Shown: piece by piece, positions 16,716 to 63,751 of the stretch
How the letters are laid out: every line of letters begins with the position of its first letter
Position numbering within the stretch: the first letter of the stretch is position 1
Notes under the pieces: model-generated
Seen by the model: only the letters and a program-made list of their open reading frames with translations
Told to the model about the DNA's origin: nothing
Database searches by the model: none
Translations under genes and position numbers: made by a program
IMG/VR virus record: IMGVR_UViG_3300042890_002891
Location: 124,001-188,000 of that record
DNA: 64,000 nt
Strand: one strand, 5' to 3'
DNA from: a virus

Positions 16716-17414
16716 TTATTTAGCCTGTATAGGTAGGGTTTTGTTGATAATTCCCGGACACACCAGACTCAACATCAACAAGAGATCTGGGTCGTCGTGA
16801 TCTACAAAATGATGGTCGCGTGTGGCCAATCTGCCGGGACGTTCAAGTTTTTCGCAAAATGCTCTGGGAATTCTAAACAAATCTTGTCGCCCCAGCAGGA
16901 ACTTTTTGACTCGAGCACTGGTGTCCGGATCCCACCATCGACTCTTCAAAAACGTGCGGTACTGATTCACAGGGTTCACCAGCATCACAGTGTCTTTGGG
17001 GTACACTACCACCGCTTGACCAATCAACCACCGATCAATATATTCAACTTGACTCATGTACTCTAGGGTGGTCAGTTCGTTGGTGTACAAAAACACATGA
17101 TCATACTGAATCATTATTTTGCATGACTTGGGCAAGCCTCGCAGCAGATCGCACATGTTGTGCAAATCACCACGCTGCTGAGTATCTGCCAGAGACGGAG
17201 CATTTGTGCCAATCCCAATGACATCACCACGGTAGCGACCATAGTAATTTTCCAAGCGGCGGTCAAGATCCGCATGATCAAAACTGCGCATGCACCAGGC
17301 AAACCTCAGGTAAAACTGCATGCGATACTGATACTGATCAAAAAACAGTCGATCGCGTGGTTCCTGACGGATATCTTTAATCTTGCTCACTGACTGGATC
17401 CAGTAATCTAACAA
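16716..17414 (-). CDS. Hypothetical protein
   Basis: 232 aa, rich in Tyr, Arg and Asp. It starts inside the last 38 bases of the ClpA-like gene (MLDYWIQSVSKIKDIRQ), an overlap typical of this genome. The body contains IMIQYDHVFLYTNE and VVVYPKDTVMLVNP, resembling alternating beta-alpha elements, and the tail is a run of hydrophobic residues. I do not recognise the family. Its linkage to the ClpA/DnaJ genes could suggest a shared transcript only. Confidence 0.5.
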   Translation of the reverse strand: MLDYWIQSVSKIKDIRQEPRDRLFFDQYQYRMQFYLRFAWCMRSFDHADLDRRLENYYGRYRGDVIGIGTNAPSLADTQQRGDLHNMCDLLRGLPKSCKIMIQYDHVFLYTNELTTLEYMSQVEYIDRWLIGQAVVVYPKDTVMLVNPVNQYRTFLKSRWWDPDTSARVKKFLLGRQDLFRIPRAFCEKLERPGRLATRDHHFVDHDDPDLLLMLSLVCPGIINKTLPIQAK

Positions 17415-19674
17415 TGTTGTCTGCTGTCACCACAGGAATCACATCAAACTGCACCACATCATCTGTTACACCTACTGTGATGTCGCAGTCACTGAGACGA
17501 TCAAACAAGATTCTCTTGCTCAAGGGCACACGAATCAGTTCATCAATCTTGCGACTCAGAGGCCTTGCACCCATTTTGCTGTCGTAACCCTTGATGGCCA
17601 GTAGTTCAATCACAGGCTCTGAGAAAAACAACCGAATGTTCTTGGATGCCACTGATGTCTTGAGTTCGTCCAGGAACTTGACCACAATCTTCTTGATGGC
17701 CAAGGTATCCAGTTTGACAAACTTGCAGATCTTGTCAATACGATTACGCAGTTCAGGTTTGAAGAACTCTTTCAATGCACGATCTTCTTCACCAGATTTT
17801 TCCAACTCACTGGAGAATCCAATGTTGTTGTTTTCATTGTCTCTGGCACCCAAGTTTGAGGTCATGATAATGATGGTATTTTTGCAATCTACCCGTTTGC
17901 CATTGGCACCTGTGAGATGCCCTTCGTCCAGCATCTGCAACAAGATATTGGTAACGTCAGCATGTGCCTTTTCAATTTCGTCAAACAGGATCACAGCAAA
18001 TGGATGTTTGCTCAGATCCGAGATCAGTTTGCCACCACCCACATTGCCATCTTCAAAGCCCACATAGCCCGGAGGTGCACCAATCAAGCTGCTGACTGAA
18101 TGCTTTTCCTGAAACTCACTCATGTCGTATCTCAACAGATGCATGTCTAGATTTTCACTCAACAGCTTGGCCAATTCAGTTTTGCCTGTGCCAGTTGGGC
18201 CCAGAAACAAAAAGCTGGCCATGGGCTTGTGTGTGCTGCCAATGCCCGAGAAGTTGATGTACACTCGCTCCAGCACAGCATCCACAGCACCTTCTTGACC
18301 ATAGAGTTTTTGTTTGATGTTGCTTTCAAGTTCCACAATCTTGGTTGAACGCTCGTTTTGCAATCTATCAGTGGGCACACCGGTGACCCGGGCCACCTGC
18401 TGTTCAATCATGCTCTTGTTCACTGTGACCATGCCTGCATCCTTCACACGCTCTCTAGCACAGGCAGCATCCAACAGGTCAATTGATTTGTCTGGATTCT
18501 TTTTGTCATGAATGTATCGGCCCGCCAGTTCAACTGCTGCGGTCATGGCCTCTGTGTCGATCATCACATTGTGGAATGCTTCCAGTCTGGGGCTGAGTCC
18601 GATCAGAATCTTTTCTGTAGTTTCGGTGTCTGGTTCATCTATGGTGAGCCTGTAGAATCGTCTCATGAGTGCGCGATCCTTTTCAAAGCTCTCGTAGTAT
18701 TCTTCCCAGGTGGTGCTGGCAATAACCTTTAGATTGCCCTTGGTGATTGCGGGCTTCAGCATGTTGGCAAAGTCCAGGCTACCTGAACTGCCGGCACCTG
18801 CACCCTTCATGGTATGCGCTTCGTCTACAAACAAGATACATTTCTTCTTGGATTCCAGTGCAGCAATCACAGCCTTGAACTTTTCTTCAAAGTCTCCGCG
18901 ATACTTTGATCCTGCTACCAGAGCACCGATTTCCAGGCTCCAGACTTCGTAGTCCTTCAAGAACGCAGGCACACGTCCGGCCACAATCTCCTGTGCCAGA
19001 CCTTCAATGATGGCAGTCTTGCCCACACCAGGATCGCCCACCATGAGCACGTTGGCCTTGAAGCGGCGGGCCAGCACAGCAATCATTTCTTCCAGTTCTG
19101 TTGTGCGCCCAATTAGCGGTTCCAAAGTATCCGACTTGGCCAGGGCTGACAAACTGGTGCAGTATTCTTCCAGGATCTCAGTGGCCTGCTGATCATTGAG
19201 ACCAGCCACAGGATCCATCTTGTAGTTCTTTCTCCAGAAGTCCACAAACTCGGCTTTTTGCACGCCAAACTTCAGCAAGAAGTAGTGTGCATGGCTGTTG
19301 GTTTCGCCCATGATGGCCAGATACAGGTCAATGGTCACAATTTGTCTGCGTCCACTAAACAACACCTGTGTTATTGCACGATTGAATACTCGTTCCAGGC
19401 CGGATGTTTTTCTAGGAGTAAAATCTGGAATGTCGCTGATTATGCCTATCAGGCTGTCCAGGTAGCCGCAGAGTTCGTTTTCCAGCATGGCCACATCGCA
19501 ACCGTACTTGGTCAAGGTGTTTCTAAAAGGCACATGTCTGATCAGGCTCAGCAACAGATGTTCTGTCATCACGTATTCGTGTTTCCAGGTCTGCGCAATT
19601 TTTATAGAGCCATCAATGATGGCTTCAATTTCGGGGTTGTCTTGCATAGCGTTTTGTCCGTGTGGTGTGCTCAT
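17377..19674 (-). CDS. clpA-like: ClpA-like double-AAA+ unfoldase
   Basis: 765 aa with the order of ClpA: N-domain (EHLLLSLIR), D1 Walker A GDPGVGKT at 213-220 and Walker B FVDEAH near 282, D2 Walker A GPTGTGKT at 492-499 and Walker B LFDEIEKAH. There is no ClpB middle domain. At 618-620 an IGF tripeptide stands where ClpA has the IGL loop that docks on ClpP, so use of host ClpP is possible. No phage ClpP is seen here. A sigma70-like promoter at 19680-19708 lies so close that the second Met (19647), which aligns better with ClpA, may be the real start. It lies next to a DnaJ-like gene. Confidence 0.9.
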   Translation of the reverse strand: MSTPHGQNAMQDNPEIEAIIDGSIKIAQTWKHEYVMTEHLLLSLIRHVPFRNTLTKYGCDVAMLENELCGYLDSLIGIISDIPDFTPRKTSGLERVFNRAITQVLFSGRRQIVTIDLYLAIMGETNSHAHYFLLKFGVQKAEFVDFWRKNYKMDPVAGLNDQQATEILEEYCTSLSALAKSDTLEPLIGRTTELEEMIAVLARRFKANVLMVGDPGVGKTAIIEGLAQEIVAGRVPAFLKDYEVWSLEIGALVAGSKYRGDFEEKFKAVIAALESKKKCILFVDEAHTMKGAGAGSSGSLDFANMLKPAITKGNLKVIASTTWEEYYESFEKDRALMRRFYRLTIDEPDTETTEKILIGLSPRLEAFHNVMIDTEAMTAAVELAGRYIHDKKNPDKSIDLLDAACARERVKDAGMVTVNKSMIEQQVARVTGVPTDRLQNERSTKIVELESNIKQKLYGQEGAVDAVLERVYINFSGIGSTHKPMASFLFLGPTGTGKTELAKLLSENLDMHLLRYDMSEFQEKHSVSSLIGAPPGYVGFEDGNVGGGKLISDLSKHPFAVILFDEIEKAHADVTNILLQMLDEGHLTGANGKRVDCKNTIIIMTSNLGARDNENNNIGFSSELEKSGEEDRALKEFFKPELRNRIDKICKFVKLDTLAIKKIVVKFLDELKTSVASKNIRLFFSEPVIELLAIKGYDSKMGARPLSRKIDELIRVPLSKRILFDRLSDCDITVGVTDDVVQFDVIPVVTADNIVRLLDPVSEQD

Positions 19675-52368: not shown

Positions 52369-54453
52369 TTACATTCTTCCTACAACAATTTCTATAATTC
52401 CACTTGAACCGTTAAAGTCTTGCAGGGCTTTGCCAATCACAGTGCCCATGGCAGGTGCAGCACAGGCCTGTGCATGACCGTTACCTGCACTTACCATCAT
52501 GTCACCTTTGGCCACAGTGCCAACCACTAGAGTAGGCACTCGTCCTGTTAGTGCTACCACAGCGCGATGTTCAGCGGTGAGACCATTGTTCATTAGATAA
52601 CTGGGCTTGTCAGAAATTACACCAGCCACACGAGCGTCATTTACAACCTGGCTCTGAGTAACTTCTTTTGAGCCGCCAAAACTGACCACGGTGCCGGTTG
52701 CAAAATCAGCATCACCTTCGTAGACTTCGGCCAAGTCAGCATACAGTGCTGTGGTTGCCTGGGCAAACACTCTGTTAAAGTAATTGGTTGAATTACCAAT
52801 GTTGCCCACTGCATTGCCTGCACCATTCACAATAGCTGTGGCAAACCCATCTGAGTTGACATAGAGGAATCCGGGCGTCAATATATTACCACCTGTAACA
52901 TTACCAACAGCACTTATCAAGCCACCTGTGACAACATTACCACCTGTGATGTTGCCAGTTGCTGACGCAGTACCGCCAGTAGCCAAATTGCCACCAGTGA
53001 TAGTTGACGTGGCATTTACTAGGCCACCAGTTATGACATTACCACCCGTGACATTGCCAACAGCACTTATCAAGCCACCTGTAACATTGCCAACAGCACT
53101 GATCAGGCCACCTGTGACTACATTGCCACCGGTGACGTTGCCTGTAGCTGATATCAATCCTTCTGTGCGCAAATTACCACCTGAGATGTTGCCGCTTGCA
53201 ATAATCAAGCCGCTTGTGATAAAATTACTGCCCTGTATATTACCGGTGGCCGACACTGTGCCGCCGAGTAAAATATTGCCACCAAAGATGTCACCAGTTA
53301 TACTTGCTGTACCGCTTGTGATCAAGTTGCCACCAGTAATTGTCGCTGTGGCACTTATCAAGCCGCCTGTGACAACATTTCCACCAGTAACGTTGCCGCT
53401 TGCACTAACAACCAATCCCAAGTGACTTGAACCGGTTACGGTACCAGTTGCACTTATCAGGCCACCTGTGACAACATTTCCACCTATGACGTTGCCACTT
53501 AGTGATGCTACTGATCCCAACAAACTTGAACCGGTTACAGTGCCAGTTGAACTGATCAAACCACCTGTGACTAAATTGCCACCTGTGATGTTGCCACCAG
53601 AACTTATCAAGCCTCCGGTGAATACATTACCACCTGTAATATTGGCCGAACTTGTAATTGTTGACGTGGCACTGATCAGGCCACCTGTGAGCACATTGCC
53701 ACCGGTGATGTTTCCTACCGCACCAAATCCTGCTTGCGAGAATTCAAATAGGTTGGTTACCCCACCAATATTACCGATTATGTTACCACCCGCTGCAGGA
53801 ATGCTCAACACTGTTGATCCATTGGTCAGTTGTGTTGCTGCGCCCACATTGCCGGTTGCAACAATACCAGTCAGACCCGAACCATTGCCCGAAAAGAAAC
53901 TGGCAGCAACATACGCACTGGTTGTGATATTAGCCACAGAATTTATTGTGCTTAAAACATTACCGCTCAGGCTCATGCCCACAGCGTTTAAATTGTTTGC
54001 AACCACATTGCCCGTGGCCGAAATTACTGCACCTATAATGCTTGATCCAGTTACTGACCCAGTTGTGGTTACGTTGCCACCTTGCACTGTGCCCACCGCA
54101 GACACTGCTCCGGCGGTGGTTATGTTGCCGCCGATTATATTACCCGTGGACGAAATCGTGCCTGCTGTGCGAATGTTGCCGCCCTGCAAAGTACCAGTTA
54201 TAGTGGCCAGTCCAGTGACTATGGCACCAGTTTGAGTGATGTTGAGCACATTTGCCACATTGCCCGAGCTGATTACAACATTGCCGTTGGCTACTGGAAT
54301 ATTAACATTTGAAGAACCGTTGGCAATACCTGAGACACCACCAGTGGCAAATAGTTGGTTAAAATTGTCGTTTGTTTTTATAAATGCCGTGCGAATCGGG
54401 TCGCCCTGACCATCATTTGCGCTTGAACCGACGTTTATTATTAATTGAGTCAT
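52369..54453 (-). CDS. Long tail-fibre protein with G2-peptidase-like tip
   Basis: 694 aa. It starts TQLIINVGSSANDGQGDPIR, a start I have seen in cyanophage fibres. More than 25 units of the type NVTGGNVVTGGLISATGT follow. The C-terminal 120 residues (ALYADLAEVYEGDADFATGT, VVSFGGSKEVTQ, VAGVISDKPSYLMNN) resemble the peptidase G2/intramolecular-chaperone-like tips of phage fibres, which may self-cleave after trimer formation; cleavage is not proven. Likely the receptor-binding fibre. The stop is 2 bases from the 820-aa gene. Confidence 0.75.
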   Translation of the reverse strand: MTQLIINVGSSANDGQGDPIRTAFIKTNDNFNQLFATGGVSGIANGSSNVNIPVANGNVVISSGNVANVLNITQTGAIVTGLATITGTLQGGNIRTAGTISSTGNIIGGNITTAGAVSAVGTVQGGNVTTTGSVTGSSIIGAVISATGNVVANNLNAVGMSLSGNVLSTINSVANITTSAYVAASFFSGNGSGLTGIVATGNVGAATQLTNGSTVLSIPAAGGNIIGNIGGVTNLFEFSQAGFGAVGNITGGNVLTGGLISATSTITSSANITGGNVFTGGLISSGGNITGGNLVTGGLISSTGTVTGSSLLGSVASLSGNVIGGNVVTGGLISATGTVTGSSHLGLVVSASGNVTGGNVVTGGLISATATITGGNLITSGTASITGDIFGGNILLGGTVSATGNIQGSNFITSGLIIASGNISGGNLRTEGLISATGNVTGGNVVTGGLISAVGNVTGGLISAVGNVTGGNVITGGLVNATSTITGGNLATGGTASATGNITGGNVVTGGLISAVGNVTGGNILTPGFLYVNSDGFATAIVNGAGNAVGNIGNSTNYFNRVFAQATTALYADLAEVYEGDADFATGTVVSFGGSKEVTQSQVVNDARVAGVISDKPSYLMNNGLTAEHRAVVALTGRVPTLVVGTVAKGDMMVSAGNGHAQACAAPAMGTVIGKALQDFNGSSGIIEIVVGRM

Positions 54454-54551: not shown

Positions 54552-54872
54552 TTAAACTGAGAAACTAGATCCGCAACCGCAGGTGCTGGCAGCTTGCGGG
54601 TTAGCAATCACAAAACTGGCACCCATGATATCTTCGCGATAGTCAATGTCCGCGCCATTGAGATACTGCATGCTCATGGCATCTACCACAATTTTTACTT
54701 CTTCGTACACAAAGTCAAAATCATCTTCGGCCTGTGTTTCTTCAAACGTAAAGCCATAGCTGAACCCTGAGCATCCGCCGCCCTGCACAAACACTCGCAG
54801 CATGATGCCAGGCTTGTTTTCTTCAGCAAATAGTTCTCGCAGTTTGGTCACTGCACCAGGTTTGATATTCAT
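54552..54872 (-). CDS. A-type iron-sulfur carrier (IscA/ErpA/HesB-like)
   Basis: 106 aa from the ATG at 54872, which overlaps the SOD stop as TAATG (an in-frame upstream Met is less likely). The three cluster-binding Cys are C34 ([13 protein letters not shown]) and C98, C100 (STCGCGSSF). It would carry Fe-S or iron to apo-enzymes, such as the radical SAM enzymes of this phage (inference). Direct coupling with an SOD suggests a joint role in iron and oxidant handling. Confidence 0.88.
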
Positions 54873-55420
54873 TAAAGTCTTTCGTTGCAAACGTCCCAGT
54901 CAATGATCTTCCAGATATTGTCAAGATAACGTTCTTTGTCCCACTGGTAATCTGTGGCCCAAACGTGTTCCCACCAGTCTACCAGCACACAGATGTCTGT
55001 GCGCACAGCATGATTAGCAATTGTTTTGATAGCACCTGTAGTACTTAGATAAATCCAGCCCGAGCCCTGAATCTTCATGGCAGTTTGTTTGAACTCTTCG
55101 CGAAAATCTTCATAGGTTTTGAAGTGTTCTTCTATCAGGGCAAGTACTGCACCACGTGGACGGTTGGCACCCTTGGGAGCCCGAAGTTGGGGGAAAAACT
55201 TATTGTGTAGAAAACTACCAGCACGATTAAAATCTGCATTGCCTTCTCCTGCATTGTAGCGGCGGGCATAGCCCTTGGCTAGATGCCCGTAGTGATAGTT
55301 GATGCTGTCTGCACTCAGTACCGGCATCAGATCTTTTTCACCATAGGGCAAAGGAGTGGTTTCCAGCTTGGCTGGTCGTGTGCTGGCTTCAACAAGATCA
55401 ATTGTATTTCTGATGTCCAT
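54872..55420 (-). CDS. Iron/manganese superoxide dismutase with N-terminal extension
   Basis: 182 aa. Metal ligands are all visible: H43 (NYHYG), H72 (FLHNKFF), D148 and H152 (DWWEH). It would turn superoxide into oxygen and peroxide. Relative to bacterial SOD it has about 20 extra N-terminal residues, [16 protein letters not shown], whose LVEA resembles the capsid-targeting leaders of the window. It may therefore be head cargo (inference). ATAAATA lies 5 bases before the ATG, with no SD. TAATG coupling leads to IscA. Confidence 0.9.
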
Positions 55421-55428
55421 AATGATAT

Positions 55429-55644
55429 TTATTTCCTTCTGGTGATTCGGCCACGGGCAAGATCATAAGGGGTGAATTCCATTTCTACCCGATCTCCCAG
55501 CAAGACCTTGATGTTGTTTTTTCTCATGCGGCCCGACAAGTGTGCCAGCACCACAGTGTTTAGGTTGTCTATTTTTACACGGAACATGGCAGAGGGCAAC
55601 ACTTCCTCCACATACCCTTCCATGTTTATGGTGTCTTCTTTCAA
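55429..55644 (-). CDS. infA: Translation initiation factor IF-1
   Basis: 71 aa. The start is a TTG at 55644, chosen because KEDTINMEG matches the N-terminus of bacterial IF-1 (KEDNIEMQG). The S1/OB fold shows [32 protein letters not shown] and [12 protein letters not shown]-1 assists start selection on the 30S subunit; a phage copy is unusual and could bias initiation, for instance toward phage mRNAs. It is short of no key region. It sits 8 bases from the SOD gene and is probably co-transcribed with it. Confidence 0.88.
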
Positions 55645-55670: not shown

Positions 55671-56075
55671 TTACTTAGCAGCAAAATCCAACTCAGCTGT
55701 GATTTTTTGCAGGCGATCAAAACGGAAACTGCGCCATTCGTTCTTTTCTGTGTCAAATACTCGAACACTGTGCGGGTCAGGTTGTTTGCGCGGCTTTCGA
55801 CTTTCGGTCAAGCCATCTGGGTTGGTGACAGAGGATTTGAAGATTGCGCCCACAGGTGCCGGTGGAATTCTGCTGCTGTCCAGAGTGCATCGCATGCTGC
55901 GTTCTGTGCCGTCAGCTTTGACAAAATCCACTGTGATTTCGCTGGTGATCAACAGGCCCCGGACCCAGGCTCGTATTTCAGCTTGTCCTGCTTCGTCTGC
56001 TTCTTGATACTGTGTTCCGGGTGCGTTTTTCAGCAAGCGAAACACTTCTGCTTTTTCCCAATCTAGTGTTGTCAT
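55671..56075 (-). CDS. WYL_2/DUF2693-like SH3-barrel protein
   Basis: 134 aa from the ATG at 56075, which has AGGAGA upstream and ATAAATA before it. It has a helical N-terminus, then [26 protein letters not shown], and the end [20 protein letters not shown], a signature of the Sm-like SH3-barrel proteins called WYL_2 in marine phages. A nucleic-acid or ligand-binding regulator is likely. Function not proven. Confidence 0.7.
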
Positions 56076-56107
56076 ATGTTCTCCTAAATATTTATTAATC
56101 GGTGTTG

Positions 56108-56281
56108 TCATAATCCCCATCTCAATCGATACCATGCATAGTCAGTGCCCTTGCGAAAGTAGATAACATCATCCCGGTGATACCAACGAGTTTGATCACG
56201 ATCGCCACCGGGTCCAAACGTGTCTATGATCCATATCAGCTGTTTTATGTCTACAGAGTTTGCGGGCAAGGACCATGTCAT
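56108..56281 (-). CDS. Small FxLKWS-family paralog, 57 aa
   Basis: Read directly from the ATG at 56281, which overlaps the stop of the 106-aa paralog (ATGA), to TGA at 56108. The product contains IIDTFGPGGDRDQTRW and ends YAWYRLRWGL. It is the last and shortest-core member of six overlapping paralogs (56108-57470). The common pattern is W-x3-TFG, RW, YWF and a C-terminal F-x-L-K-W-S. Function unknown. Confidence 0.7.
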   Translation of the reverse strand: MTWSLPANSVDIKQLIWIIDTFGPGGDRDQTRWYHRDDVIYFRKGTDYAWYRLRWGL

Positions 56282-56598
56282 GACCACTTCAACACAAACC
56301 AGTCCCGGTCCCGAGCGTCACGAAACCAGAACTTGCCACTGTCCGCATACCAACGGGCATTGGCCTCCCTTAGGTCAGGCGAAGGGCCAAAGGTGTTGTT
56401 CATCCAGACCACCATGTCATACCACTTGCCTTCTGCGTTCCCAGGAGTCACTGTTAGATACTCTTGTCCATACACTCGACCTGTGCTGTGCTCTAGATAA
56501 AAATCAAATATCATGCCCATACTCTTCAAAACTTGTTTATCGATATCATCGCTCATGGCTTGAGCTGCTTTTTTTAATAGCGTTTGTTCCAGGTTCAT
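56278..56598 (-). CDS. Small FxLKWS-family paralog, 106 aa
   Basis: From the ATG at 56598 that overlaps the previous stop. It has an extra 55-residue N-terminal domain (LLKKAAQAMSDDIDKQVLK, HSTGRVYGQEYLTV) before the shared core DMVVWMNNTFG, NARWYADSGKFWF and DWFVLKWS. The extension is not shared by other members. Position and overlap show coupled translation. Confidence 0.7.
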   Translation of the reverse strand: MNLEQTLLKKAAQAMSDDIDKQVLKSMGMIFDFYLEHSTGRVYGQEYLTVTPGNAEGKWYDMVVWMNNTFGPSPDLREANARWYADSGKFWFRDARDRDWFVLKWS

Positions 56599-56828
56599 GA
56601 CCATTTCAGTGCAAACAGTGCAGCAGTCTTGCTATCAGTGAACTGCCAAACGGTGCCACCGTCTGCCTGGTGTTCTTCACGCCAGAGATCAGTGTGTATG
56701 CTATTGCCAAACGTATTGCAGCACCAGTCAAACATGTTGATATATCCATTTCGATCTGCTTGATCGTAAGTTAACCTGATTCGATATTTCCACTTTCGTG
56801 CATCTTGTCGTCGTTGTTTGGAGTTCAT
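56595..56828 (-). CDS. Small FxLKWS-family paralog, 77 aa
   Basis: From the ATG at 56828, start fixed by ATGA overlap. N-terminus basic (MNSKQRRQDARKWKYRIRLT), then the core MFDWCCNTFGNSIHTDLW, TVWQFTDSKTAALFALKWS. The TFG and LKWS motifs fit the group. Unknown function. Confidence 0.7.
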   Translation of the reverse strand: MNSKQRRQDARKWKYRIRLTYDQADRNGYINMFDWCCNTFGNSIHTDLWREEHQADGGTVWQFTDSKTAALFALKWS

Positions 56829-57028
56829 GACCACCTCAGTGTAAACCACATGTGGTATTTTTTGTTGTCAAACCAATAAATGTCCGGTCCCAGTGGGTAC
56901 ATCAGGTCCGCTGCTGGATCTCGACCCAGTCTGTACCACGCCTGATCAAACTTGCCCAGGTGTTGTTCACACCAAGGCACCACCTGATCCATTGAACTGG
57001 TGGTAGTGGCCCGGTACAAAAAATTCAT
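56825..57028 (-). CDS. Small FxLKWS-family paralog, 67 aa
   Basis: From the ATG at 57028, ATGA coupled. Core MDQVVPWCEQHLGKFDQAWY, YPLGPDIYWFDNKKYHMWF and end TLRWS. Here TFG is replaced by HLG, so the member is more diverged. Unknown function. Confidence 0.65.
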   Translation of the reverse strand: MNFLYRATTTSSMDQVVPWCEQHLGKFDQAWYRLGRDPAADLMYPLGPDIYWFDNKKYHMWFTLRWS

Positions 57029-57309
57029 GCCCATTTCAACAAGAACAAGGTTCTATCCGATTCTTCACGGAACCAGTATTTTCTATCACTGCCTACCCAG
57101 CGCCCTTTGTCTTGGTCTGCCCACACAGTGTCACCAAATGTTGCTCGCACCCATAACTCGATGTTGTACATTTCTGTTACGTTGTAGTACCGAGGTTGCA
57201 CCCAGTAGGGCCAATTGGGTTGTAATACTGCTTGACCAGTGTCAAGCCGTTTCTTATCGGTTACCAATTCGGTCCAGCGAGATTCTGCCATAGCACGTTT
57301 CTTTATCAT
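57025..57309 (-). CDS. Small FxLKWS-family paralog, 94 aa
   Basis: From the ATG at 57309, ATGA coupled to the 54-aa member. An N-terminal 45 residues (RWTELVTDKKRLDTGQAVLQ) precede the core ELWVRATFGDTVWADQDKGR, KYWFREESDRTLFLLKWA. It best shows the consensus of the group. Unknown function. Confidence 0.7.
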   Translation of the reverse strand: MIKKRAMAESRWTELVTDKKRLDTGQAVLQPNWPYWVQPRYYNVTEMYNIELWVRATFGDTVWADQDKGRWVGSDRKYWFREESDRTLFLLKWA

Positions 57310-57470
57310 GACCACTTGAGTAAAAACATCAAGGCTTCTTTTTCATTGCCAAAACAGTAATCAATTGTTGCGGTATTGTATGAGAAGTTGGTGATATAAC
57401 TTGGACAATGCTGCTTGGCCCAGGCCAAAGGCTTCCAATCAAAAGGATCGTAGGGCAAAGTGACTGTCAT
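57306..57470 (-). CDS. Small FxLKWS-family paralog, 54 aa
   Basis: Read directly from the ATG at 57470. The product reads MTVTLPYDPFDWKPLAWAKQ and ends NEKEALMFLLKWS. It is the first gene of the six-gene overlapping run and lies 5 bases from the 132-aa gene. The shared ending with the other five members is the best evidence that it is real. Unknown function. Confidence 0.65.
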   Translation of the reverse strand: MTVTLPYDPFDWKPLAWAKQHCPSYITNFSYNTATIDYCFGNEKEALMFLLKWS

Positions 57471-57475
57471 GCTGC

Positions 57476-57874
57476 TTATCCACGGCGCATGGTTGCGATG
57501 TCATGTGCTTCTTGATCGCTGAACACCGGCACTGCATTTGATTTGTGCATGGTACCAATGCCAAGAATTTTTGTGCCTGTGTATTGCGGATTAGGTTTGC
57601 TGGATACTGCTCCTGAATGTCCGGTGTCACGGCTGGGAATGTGCGCGGTGCCTGCACGATCTGTCACACCGGTTAGATTGTACACCAAGGGCTCTGCTGC
57701 CAGGGCACGTCGACGCTTCTTTTCTTCTGCAGCCACGCCTTGACGTTTCAGCAGTTCTTTCCAGCTGGAATCCAGCTCACGAGCCAGTCGTGCTTCCTCG
57801 GCATTGCGGTATTTGAACTTGCCCTTCTTTTTACCATTAAGACTAAGAGCAGGTCCAACTAGATGAAACGTCAT
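57476..57874 (-). CDS. Conserved phage hypothetical protein
   Basis: 132 aa. The N-terminal 50 residues are a basic helix (GKKKGKFKYRNAEEARLARE, KRQGVAAEEKKRRRAL). The C-terminus NPQYTGTKILGIGTMHKSNA and VPVFSDQEAHDIATMRR is a signature recurring in marine phages. It starts a transcript with the six FxLKWS paralogs, under a consensus promoter at 57907-57935. Function unknown. Confidence 0.65.
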   Translation of the reverse strand: MTFHLVGPALSLNGKKKGKFKYRNAEEARLARELDSSWKELLKRQGVAAEEKKRRRALAAEPLVYNLTGVTDRAGTAHIPSRDTGHSGAVSSKPNPQYTGTKILGIGTMHKSNAVPVFSDQEAHDIATMRRG

Positions 57875-57906: not shown

Positions 57907-57935
57907 ATTATAGCACAGAGTGAATTAATAGTCAA
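57907..57935 (-). promoter_or_regulatory. Consensus sigma70 promoter
   Basis: Minus strand TTGACT (57930-57935), 17 bases, TATAAT (57907-57912), 33 bases before the ATG at 57874. It should drive the 132-aa gene and the six paralogs downstream. Confidence 0.75.
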
Positions 57936-63380: not shown

Positions 63381-63409
63381 ATTATAGCATTTCGGTGAAT
63401 ATTGGTCAA
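63381..63409 (-). promoter_or_regulatory. Sigma70 promoter, copy 2 of a three-fold repeat
   Basis: Minus strand TTGACC (63404-63409), 17 bases, TATAAT (63381-63386). The surrounding 45 bases are almost identical to those at 63723. Confidence 0.85.
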
Positions 63410-63722: not shown

Positions 63723-63751
63723 ATTATAGCATTTCGGTGAATATTGGTCAA
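63723..63751 (-). promoter_or_regulatory. Sigma70 promoter, copy 3 of a three-fold repeat
   Basis: Minus strand TTGACC (63746-63751), 17 bases, TATAAT (63723-63728). Confidence 0.85.

Follow-up and report, generated by a model that had tools for sequence, protein, structure and literature searches.

The 64-kb window analyzed here, one continuous stretch of a 261,673-bp viral record, harbors a confirmed cassette array of small single-domain proteins, in which the end of one protein, the start of the next, and the likely site of recombination fall on the same few nucleotides. This coincidence explains how such an array can grow and shrink without breakage. The array belongs to a large and hyperdiverse family of genes in large uncultured phages, which is missing from the family libraries searched and whose array genes are short enough for annotation to miss. 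We infer that the array is a modular, early-expressed set of host-interaction proteins engaged in counter-defense or takeover, a reading held with evenly balanced confidence.

Six paralogous genes in tandem

The array consists of six consecutive minus-strand genes encoding proteins of 54, 94, 67, 77, 106, and 57 amino acids (aa), which together occupy positions 56108–57470 of the window (Table 1). From the second gene on, each start codon lies inside the ATGA that closes the preceding gene. Coordinates, lengths, and overlaps are all as given in the original prediction, which further held the six genes to be paralogous and their common feature to be a C-terminal core preceded by variable N-termini. 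Paralogy is borne out by a 61-position profile of the six proteins, which, searched against the whole record, returned exactly these six, at E-values of 1e-20 to 1e-24, with homology reaching beyond the tail. This homology covers ~60 residues, upstream helix and strands included, at ~15–30% identity among paralogs, with tryptophan, glycine, and aromatic positions in common. Five open reading frames (ORFs) in the window end in F-x-[LMIV]-[KR]-[WFY], all of them array members; the remaining member ends in YRLRWGL, outside this pattern. At least five more members of the family reside elsewhere in the same record, outside the array.

Table 1. The array operon and its surroundings, in window coordinates
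Feature	Position	Strand	Remarks
Promoter TTGACT-17-TATAAT	57907..57935	-	near-perfect sigma70-type; 11/12 consensus, TG before -10
132-aa gene	57476..57874	-	opens the operon; phrog_27048 (unknown function), PHROG E 1.7e-23
Array gene 1	57306..57470	-	54 aa, almost all core; own-record profile search E 1.9e-22
Array gene 2	57025..57309	-	94 aa; orthologs in ~30 contigs; AlphaFold2 mean pLDDT 83
Array gene 3	56825..57028	-	67 aa; own-record profile search E 1.1e-24
Array gene 4	56595..56828	-	77 aa, leader MNSKQRR; own-record profile search E 5.5e-23
Array gene 5	56278..56598	-	106 aa; leader LLKKAAQAMSDDIDKQVLKSMG, weak profile-level resemblance to major capsid protein helix
Array gene 6	56108..56281	-	57 aa; own-record profile search E 1.5e-24
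Junction of window/L015 cassette difference	56108..56111	-	ATGA; 203-nt clean indel, ATG to ATG
WYL_2 gene	55671..56078	-	next downstream of array; PF10902 E 1.9e-9

A common core with a confidently predicted fold

The AlphaFold2 model of the 94-aa protein (mean pLDDT 83, core above 90, pTM 0.70) comprises a helix followed by a strand–strand–helix–strand–strand–helix arrangement, and its core forms the C-terminal domain. The LKW of the tail constitutes the last turn of the final core helix. The model of the 106-aa protein agrees with it, at lower confidence. The division into common core and variable N-termini is thus strongly supported, both by sequence and by a confident predicted core.

This core matched nothing in sequence searches of Pfam, PHROGs, NCBIfam, and the PDB, and fold searches of the PDB with both models returned nothing similar, with no E-value below 1. 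In a viral library, the only good Foldseek matches were uncharacterized proteins of uncultured Caudovirales, four of them at E-values of 1e-11 to 2e-4, with a probability near 1 for ~10. The matches in BFVD include A0A6J5T1G0, A0A6J7WGK8, A0A6J5KVW6, and A0A6J5L6V8. These proteins, represented by predicted structures only and without a described family or function, share the predicted fold and are probably members of the array family. Searches of the open-licence literature found no description of it.

Arrays in related phages

An alignment of the six proteins is too diverse for scanning a sequence collection, so that single members and a junction motif, TTTNNNYTNARRTGGTCATGA, were used instead. 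Two scans of viral contigs with single members uncovered ~30 contigs with similarly built arrays of 4–11 genes each, and iterated profiles gathered 137 unique proteins in 29 groups. The junction-motif scan returned at least 513 members, at ~75 of the 80 loci listed and with up to ~20 per locus, and the reversed-sequence control of the member search at these loci gave none at E < 0.01. Overall, profile relatives number more than 500 in ~100 viral contigs, with array-bearing contigs of up to 374 kb; the relatives' loci having been fetched by sequence patterns, frequencies among them are biased, and the serine in KWS is over-counted at loci fetched with the TCATGA pattern. Conservation in related genomes, on which the original prediction had made itself depend, is accordingly present, in arrays of up to ~20 genes. 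A tblastn search of cultured phages with three members gave no convincing match, and bacterial genomes gave none to the array family.

Members also occur in other arrangements. A coupled pair of likely members, dispersed between thyX-like and epimerase-like genes on the minus strand (G000:C1:60929-61518), is possibly the seed of an array. A possible member at G000 222306-222566 sits between ClpX-like and Hsp20-like genes, in a region outside the window (G000 221413-223779, L063) where homologs of ClpX, ClpS, and Hsp20 were recognized by eye. A 190-aa ORF (L171 2634-3203, plus strand; AAYFMLNF...VMAKLRFG) resembles two members fused head to tail without a stop.

Junctions, cassette turnover, and selection

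TGG is the penultimate codon at 298 of 376 ATGA junctions. The overlap imposes NNA as the last codon, and the residue after the tryptophan (S, L, A, E, T, Q, G, V, and others) is therefore dictated largely by this overlap and not by the protein. The final position of the proposed terminal motif F-x-L-(K/R)-W-(S/A/G) is accordingly no conserved motif residue. That the LKWS codons might double as a Shine–Dalgarno element does not hold in general, because motifs of this kind were found 4–14 nt upstream of just 147 of 412 ATGA starts.

Direct repeats of 12–20 nt mark the cassette junctions. Each cassette appears to close with the same ~12–20 nt (TTN-AGR-TGG-TCA-TGA), next start codon included, such that recombination between any two 3′ ends would preserve both frame and coupling. 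Cassettes are gained and lost whole, presumably because every 3′ end repeats this sequence and carries the next start codon. Indeed, related phages display a colinear order, 3-1-4-6-0-5-8-(16/20)-2-(19)-9-(13)-7, with whole genes present or absent, and pairwise alignments of close relatives contain clean indels of 203, 206, 230, 239, and 723 nt, the last of which takes out three cassettes together. These indels extend between ATGA junctions or begin inside the common ATTGAGRTGGTCATGA 3′ end. In L015, the closest array relative, the junction that ends the window's array holds one extra cassette, a 69-aa member (L015:5785-5994). Nucleotide identity between the two is ~100% in some cassettes and 70–90% in adjoining ones, and such jumps between neighbors suggest exchange.

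The original prediction invoked diversifying selection on the N-termini, a claim that, in its usual sense, the substitution rates do not support. Between the window and L015, dN/dS is 0.24 in the N-terminal part and 0.19 in the core; across ten ortholog groups, the respective ranges are 0.14–0.93 and 0.10–0.53. Low throughout, these values mark real proteins under purifying selection, with somewhat freer leaders. Diversifying selection acting point-wise, at the level of single columns, found no support in these ratios. Instead, the variety stems from the gain and loss of whole cassettes and from the exchange of leaders between cores.

The closest known precedents are the nin region of lambda and lambdoid phages and similar phage arrays, where small genes with start/stop overlaps undergo whole-gene replacement at conserved boundaries and serve accessory functions. 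The array resembles them in its start/stop overlaps and in whole-gene gain and loss at the boundaries. Unlike nin genes, which are not one paralogous family, array genes share a common core; moreover, their boundary sequence is a conserved protein end, their paralogs reach ~20 in number, and their leaders are swapped. Nor did the core match any PHROG or Pfam family that would relate it to nin genes.

Leaders: Swapping and origins

When the N-terminal parts, split off from the core, were set against 1,076 long ORFs, several of these leaders matched the major capsid protein (MCP). Pfam Gp23 (PF07068) was found in 7 of 128 members (best E-value 5.6e-13), as was PHROG_138. A capsid profile built from T4 gp23 and six large-phage capsid proteins detected ~20 members near or below 1e-3, the best at 1e-15, and none in reversed sequences. 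These relatives' leaders match two short segments of Gp23. The first, present in most of them, corresponds to T4 gp23 residues 94–132, the conserved VRRxxPxLIAxxIxGVQPM..GxxFxLR stretch; the second is a helix around AExxxxLAxEIxxEIDxEI. At ~15–60 residues and fused to an unrelated core, the capsid leaders do not make their bearers capsid proteins: a full-length Gp23 domain is absent from the members, which match only profile positions 1–51 and 134–227 in ORFs of 92–138 aa, whereas for genuine capsid genes on contigs of this kind the match to Gp23 covers ~350 positions. Of the 15 contigs searched, 5 proved to have a full Gp23-type capsid gene. The window's own record gave no match to Gp23 or TerL, and may be incomplete or divergent.

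Leaders and cores have been shuffled against each other. Four or more core lineages, mutually only 20–40% identical, bear the capsid leader. Conversely, one core lineage (KYKFSRAKWY...DAWSRW...KDYEWFxLRWS), represented at 65 loci, bears many unrelated leaders. Among these are the capsid segment, DLET linked in chains with a Q-motif/Walker A (GRQTGKS) and SNLCKEIxLP, NLCKEI...QLCTLG, and others without a match. The SNLCKEI and QLCTLG leaders match the phages' NrdA, with profile E-values down to 8e-6, at the same positions each time, and not in reversed sequences; the stretch concerned is one that we take to be the catalytic-cysteine region. Only 33–38 of 72 nt agree between these leaders and their own nrdA gene, so that the resemblance resides in the protein and is probably old. 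For the same reason, mimicry of the phage's own genes at the DNA or RNA level is disfavored.

Thus, in the relatives, some leaders derive, as judged by homology, from pieces of the phage core proteins MCP and NrdA. Leaders around a Walker A motif score weakly against phrog_2 (E 0.0024) and phrog_19 (E 0.007); they are at best terminase- or helicase-like, which is suggestive of an origin in a P-loop ATPase. Exonuclease, terminase/helicase, and endolysin origins are leads only. One member (L122:3388-3678) carries the leader MFKGRGFVQLTGR, which resembles a GH19 endolysin motif (GRGFVQLTGR) and is a possible captured fragment, scoring E 0.2 with phrog_181 and 0.0025 in ORF matches.

The six leaders of the window itself mostly match nothing, and only that of the 106-aa gene appears weakly capsid-like. 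The profile of its leader group picks MCP residues 199–225 first among the 1,076 ORFs (E 1.5e-4), with the next ORF at 0.83 and the best of 30 column-shuffled profiles at 0.03.

Operon context

The sigma70-like promoter heads the window's array operon, 33 nt upstream of its first gene, the phrog_27048 member, which stops 5 nt ahead of the start of array gene 1. Sites of the form TTGAC-n-TATAAT number six in the window, with 0.15 expected, and all lie on the minus strand, the strand of the array. The promoter sequence suggests that the operon is expressed early. Directly before the array of a relative, L027, no promoter of comparable quality was found. Downstream, the WYL_2 gene shares its frame with ATGACAACACCG at 56111, a possible coupled start; translational coupling thus seems to continue from the array into that gene.

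The array's neighbors in the window include genes for NAD synthetase, a cell-wall hydrolase, a methyltransferase, WYL_2, IF-1, superoxide dismutase, and Fe-S proteins. In another relative, G001, the array is flanked on one side by a UvsW-like helicase gene and on the other by genes for exonuclease, primase, and helicase, which places it among replication genes. Both neighborhoods would fit an early or accessory role better than a structural one.

Proposed function and its rivals

In the host-interaction reading, the core would serve as the common scaffold or docking part of each cassette protein, and the leader, or the protein surface, would give target specificity by choosing the host partner. 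The cassettes are probably early-expressed, judging from the promoter, and translationally coupled, judging from the overlaps; the array would let the phage change its set of proteins by recombination, with coupling undisturbed. The original prediction's description of the proteins as adaptors, perhaps anti-host, is compatible with this anatomy and with the likely early promoter. Against the host-interaction reading stand the absence of point-wise positive selection, which is expected for some arms-race proteins, the lack of a match for most of the window's own leaders and for the core in known protein families, and the want of a comparably good promoter before the array in L027.

A more specific scheme, which we consider doubtful, is that the scaffold and its interchangeable leaders form a combinatorial, changeable set of decoys against host immune sensors or rival phages. 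Part of the leaders would be mosaics of the best-conserved peptides within phage core proteins: the Gol-type capsid segment, the NrdA catalytic-cysteine loop, Walker A, and perhaps exonuclease DLET. They would mimic phage parts sensed by defense systems, and the core would present them, leaving sensors occupied or mis-activated. The ~20 members with a capsid segment, mostly the 94–132 equivalent, speak for this, as do the few terminase- or helicase-like leaders and the retention of homology in protein rather than DNA. Residues 94–132 of gp23 would cover the Gol region, as far as a placement in the first quarter of the protein allows. Gol, a 29-residue stretch in the first quarter of T4 gp23 and its most conserved one, binds EF-Tu and triggers Lit (PMC3014915), and CapRel senses capsid proteins directly (PMC9712102). 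The recurrent capsid leader would correspond to the gp23 stretch that holds Gol; in T4, however, Gol lies inside full-length gp23, whereas the array's leader sits in a separate fusion protein. Since Gol activates Lit, a soluble Gol peptide could hurt the phage in the presence of Lit. Motifs of NrdA and exonuclease are not among the known triggers, and our estimate is kept low because NrdA leaders fit no known sensor. Furthermore, most leaders match nothing, and conserved motifs are the easiest to detect, so that the apparent choice of leaders may reflect detection bias. If the leaders were decoys, they would point straight to what bacterial immune sensors recognize. The same origin in essential core proteins common to related phages could also suit weapons against co-infecting phages, in which capsid, RNR, and ATPase fragments act as dominant negatives on a competitor's assembly or replication. 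Yet such fragments would also hit the producer, since these segments occur in its own capsid protein and NrdA as well, and what the NrdA pieces contain is an active-site motif, not a known interface; this use as weapons we judge improbable.

Marginally less improbable is a non-adaptive origin, in which leaders are random captures during cassette recombination and only the core matters. In its favor, leaders are mosaic and often unrecognizable; against it, recurrence over numerous contigs is confined to a few segments (two capsid, one NrdA), and in most ortholog groups purifying selection acts on the leaders themselves. A role as minor virion or assembly proteins, which the capsid-derived leaders and the fibre-like genes a few kb from the window's array might suggest, is quite unlikely given the strong sigma70-like promoter on the operon, the placement among replication genes in G001, and the heavy gene gain and loss between close relatives. 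Least likely is that the common tail acts only at the DNA level, as a signal for coupled translation or for recombination, in proteins without a common function. This would accommodate the recurrent 3′ end and its TGG-NNA-TGA junctions, but the proteins are homologous over ~60 residues, upstream helix and strands too, and have low dN/dS over their entire length; dispersed members outside the array retain the motif, for which reason this explanation is already largely refuted.

Other features of the window

Several further features of the window deserve mention. A 29-nt promoter sequence, TTGACCAATATTCACCGAAATGCTATAAT, is present twice on the minus strand, at 63381-63409 and 63723-63751, 342 nt apart; together with four further near-perfect promoters, the pair suggests that the window's right end is an early-gene region. 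On the same strand, positions 17377-19674 encode a ClpA-like ATPase (phrog_4871), and 52369-54453 a 694-aa protein with GGNVxTGGLISATG-type repeats and a tail-fibre-like C-terminus, which has no Pfam match. Finally, genes for an Fe-S_biosyn assembly protein, an iron/manganese superoxide dismutase, and IF-1, an unusual gene for a phage, follow in a row at 54552-55644, likewise on the minus strand.
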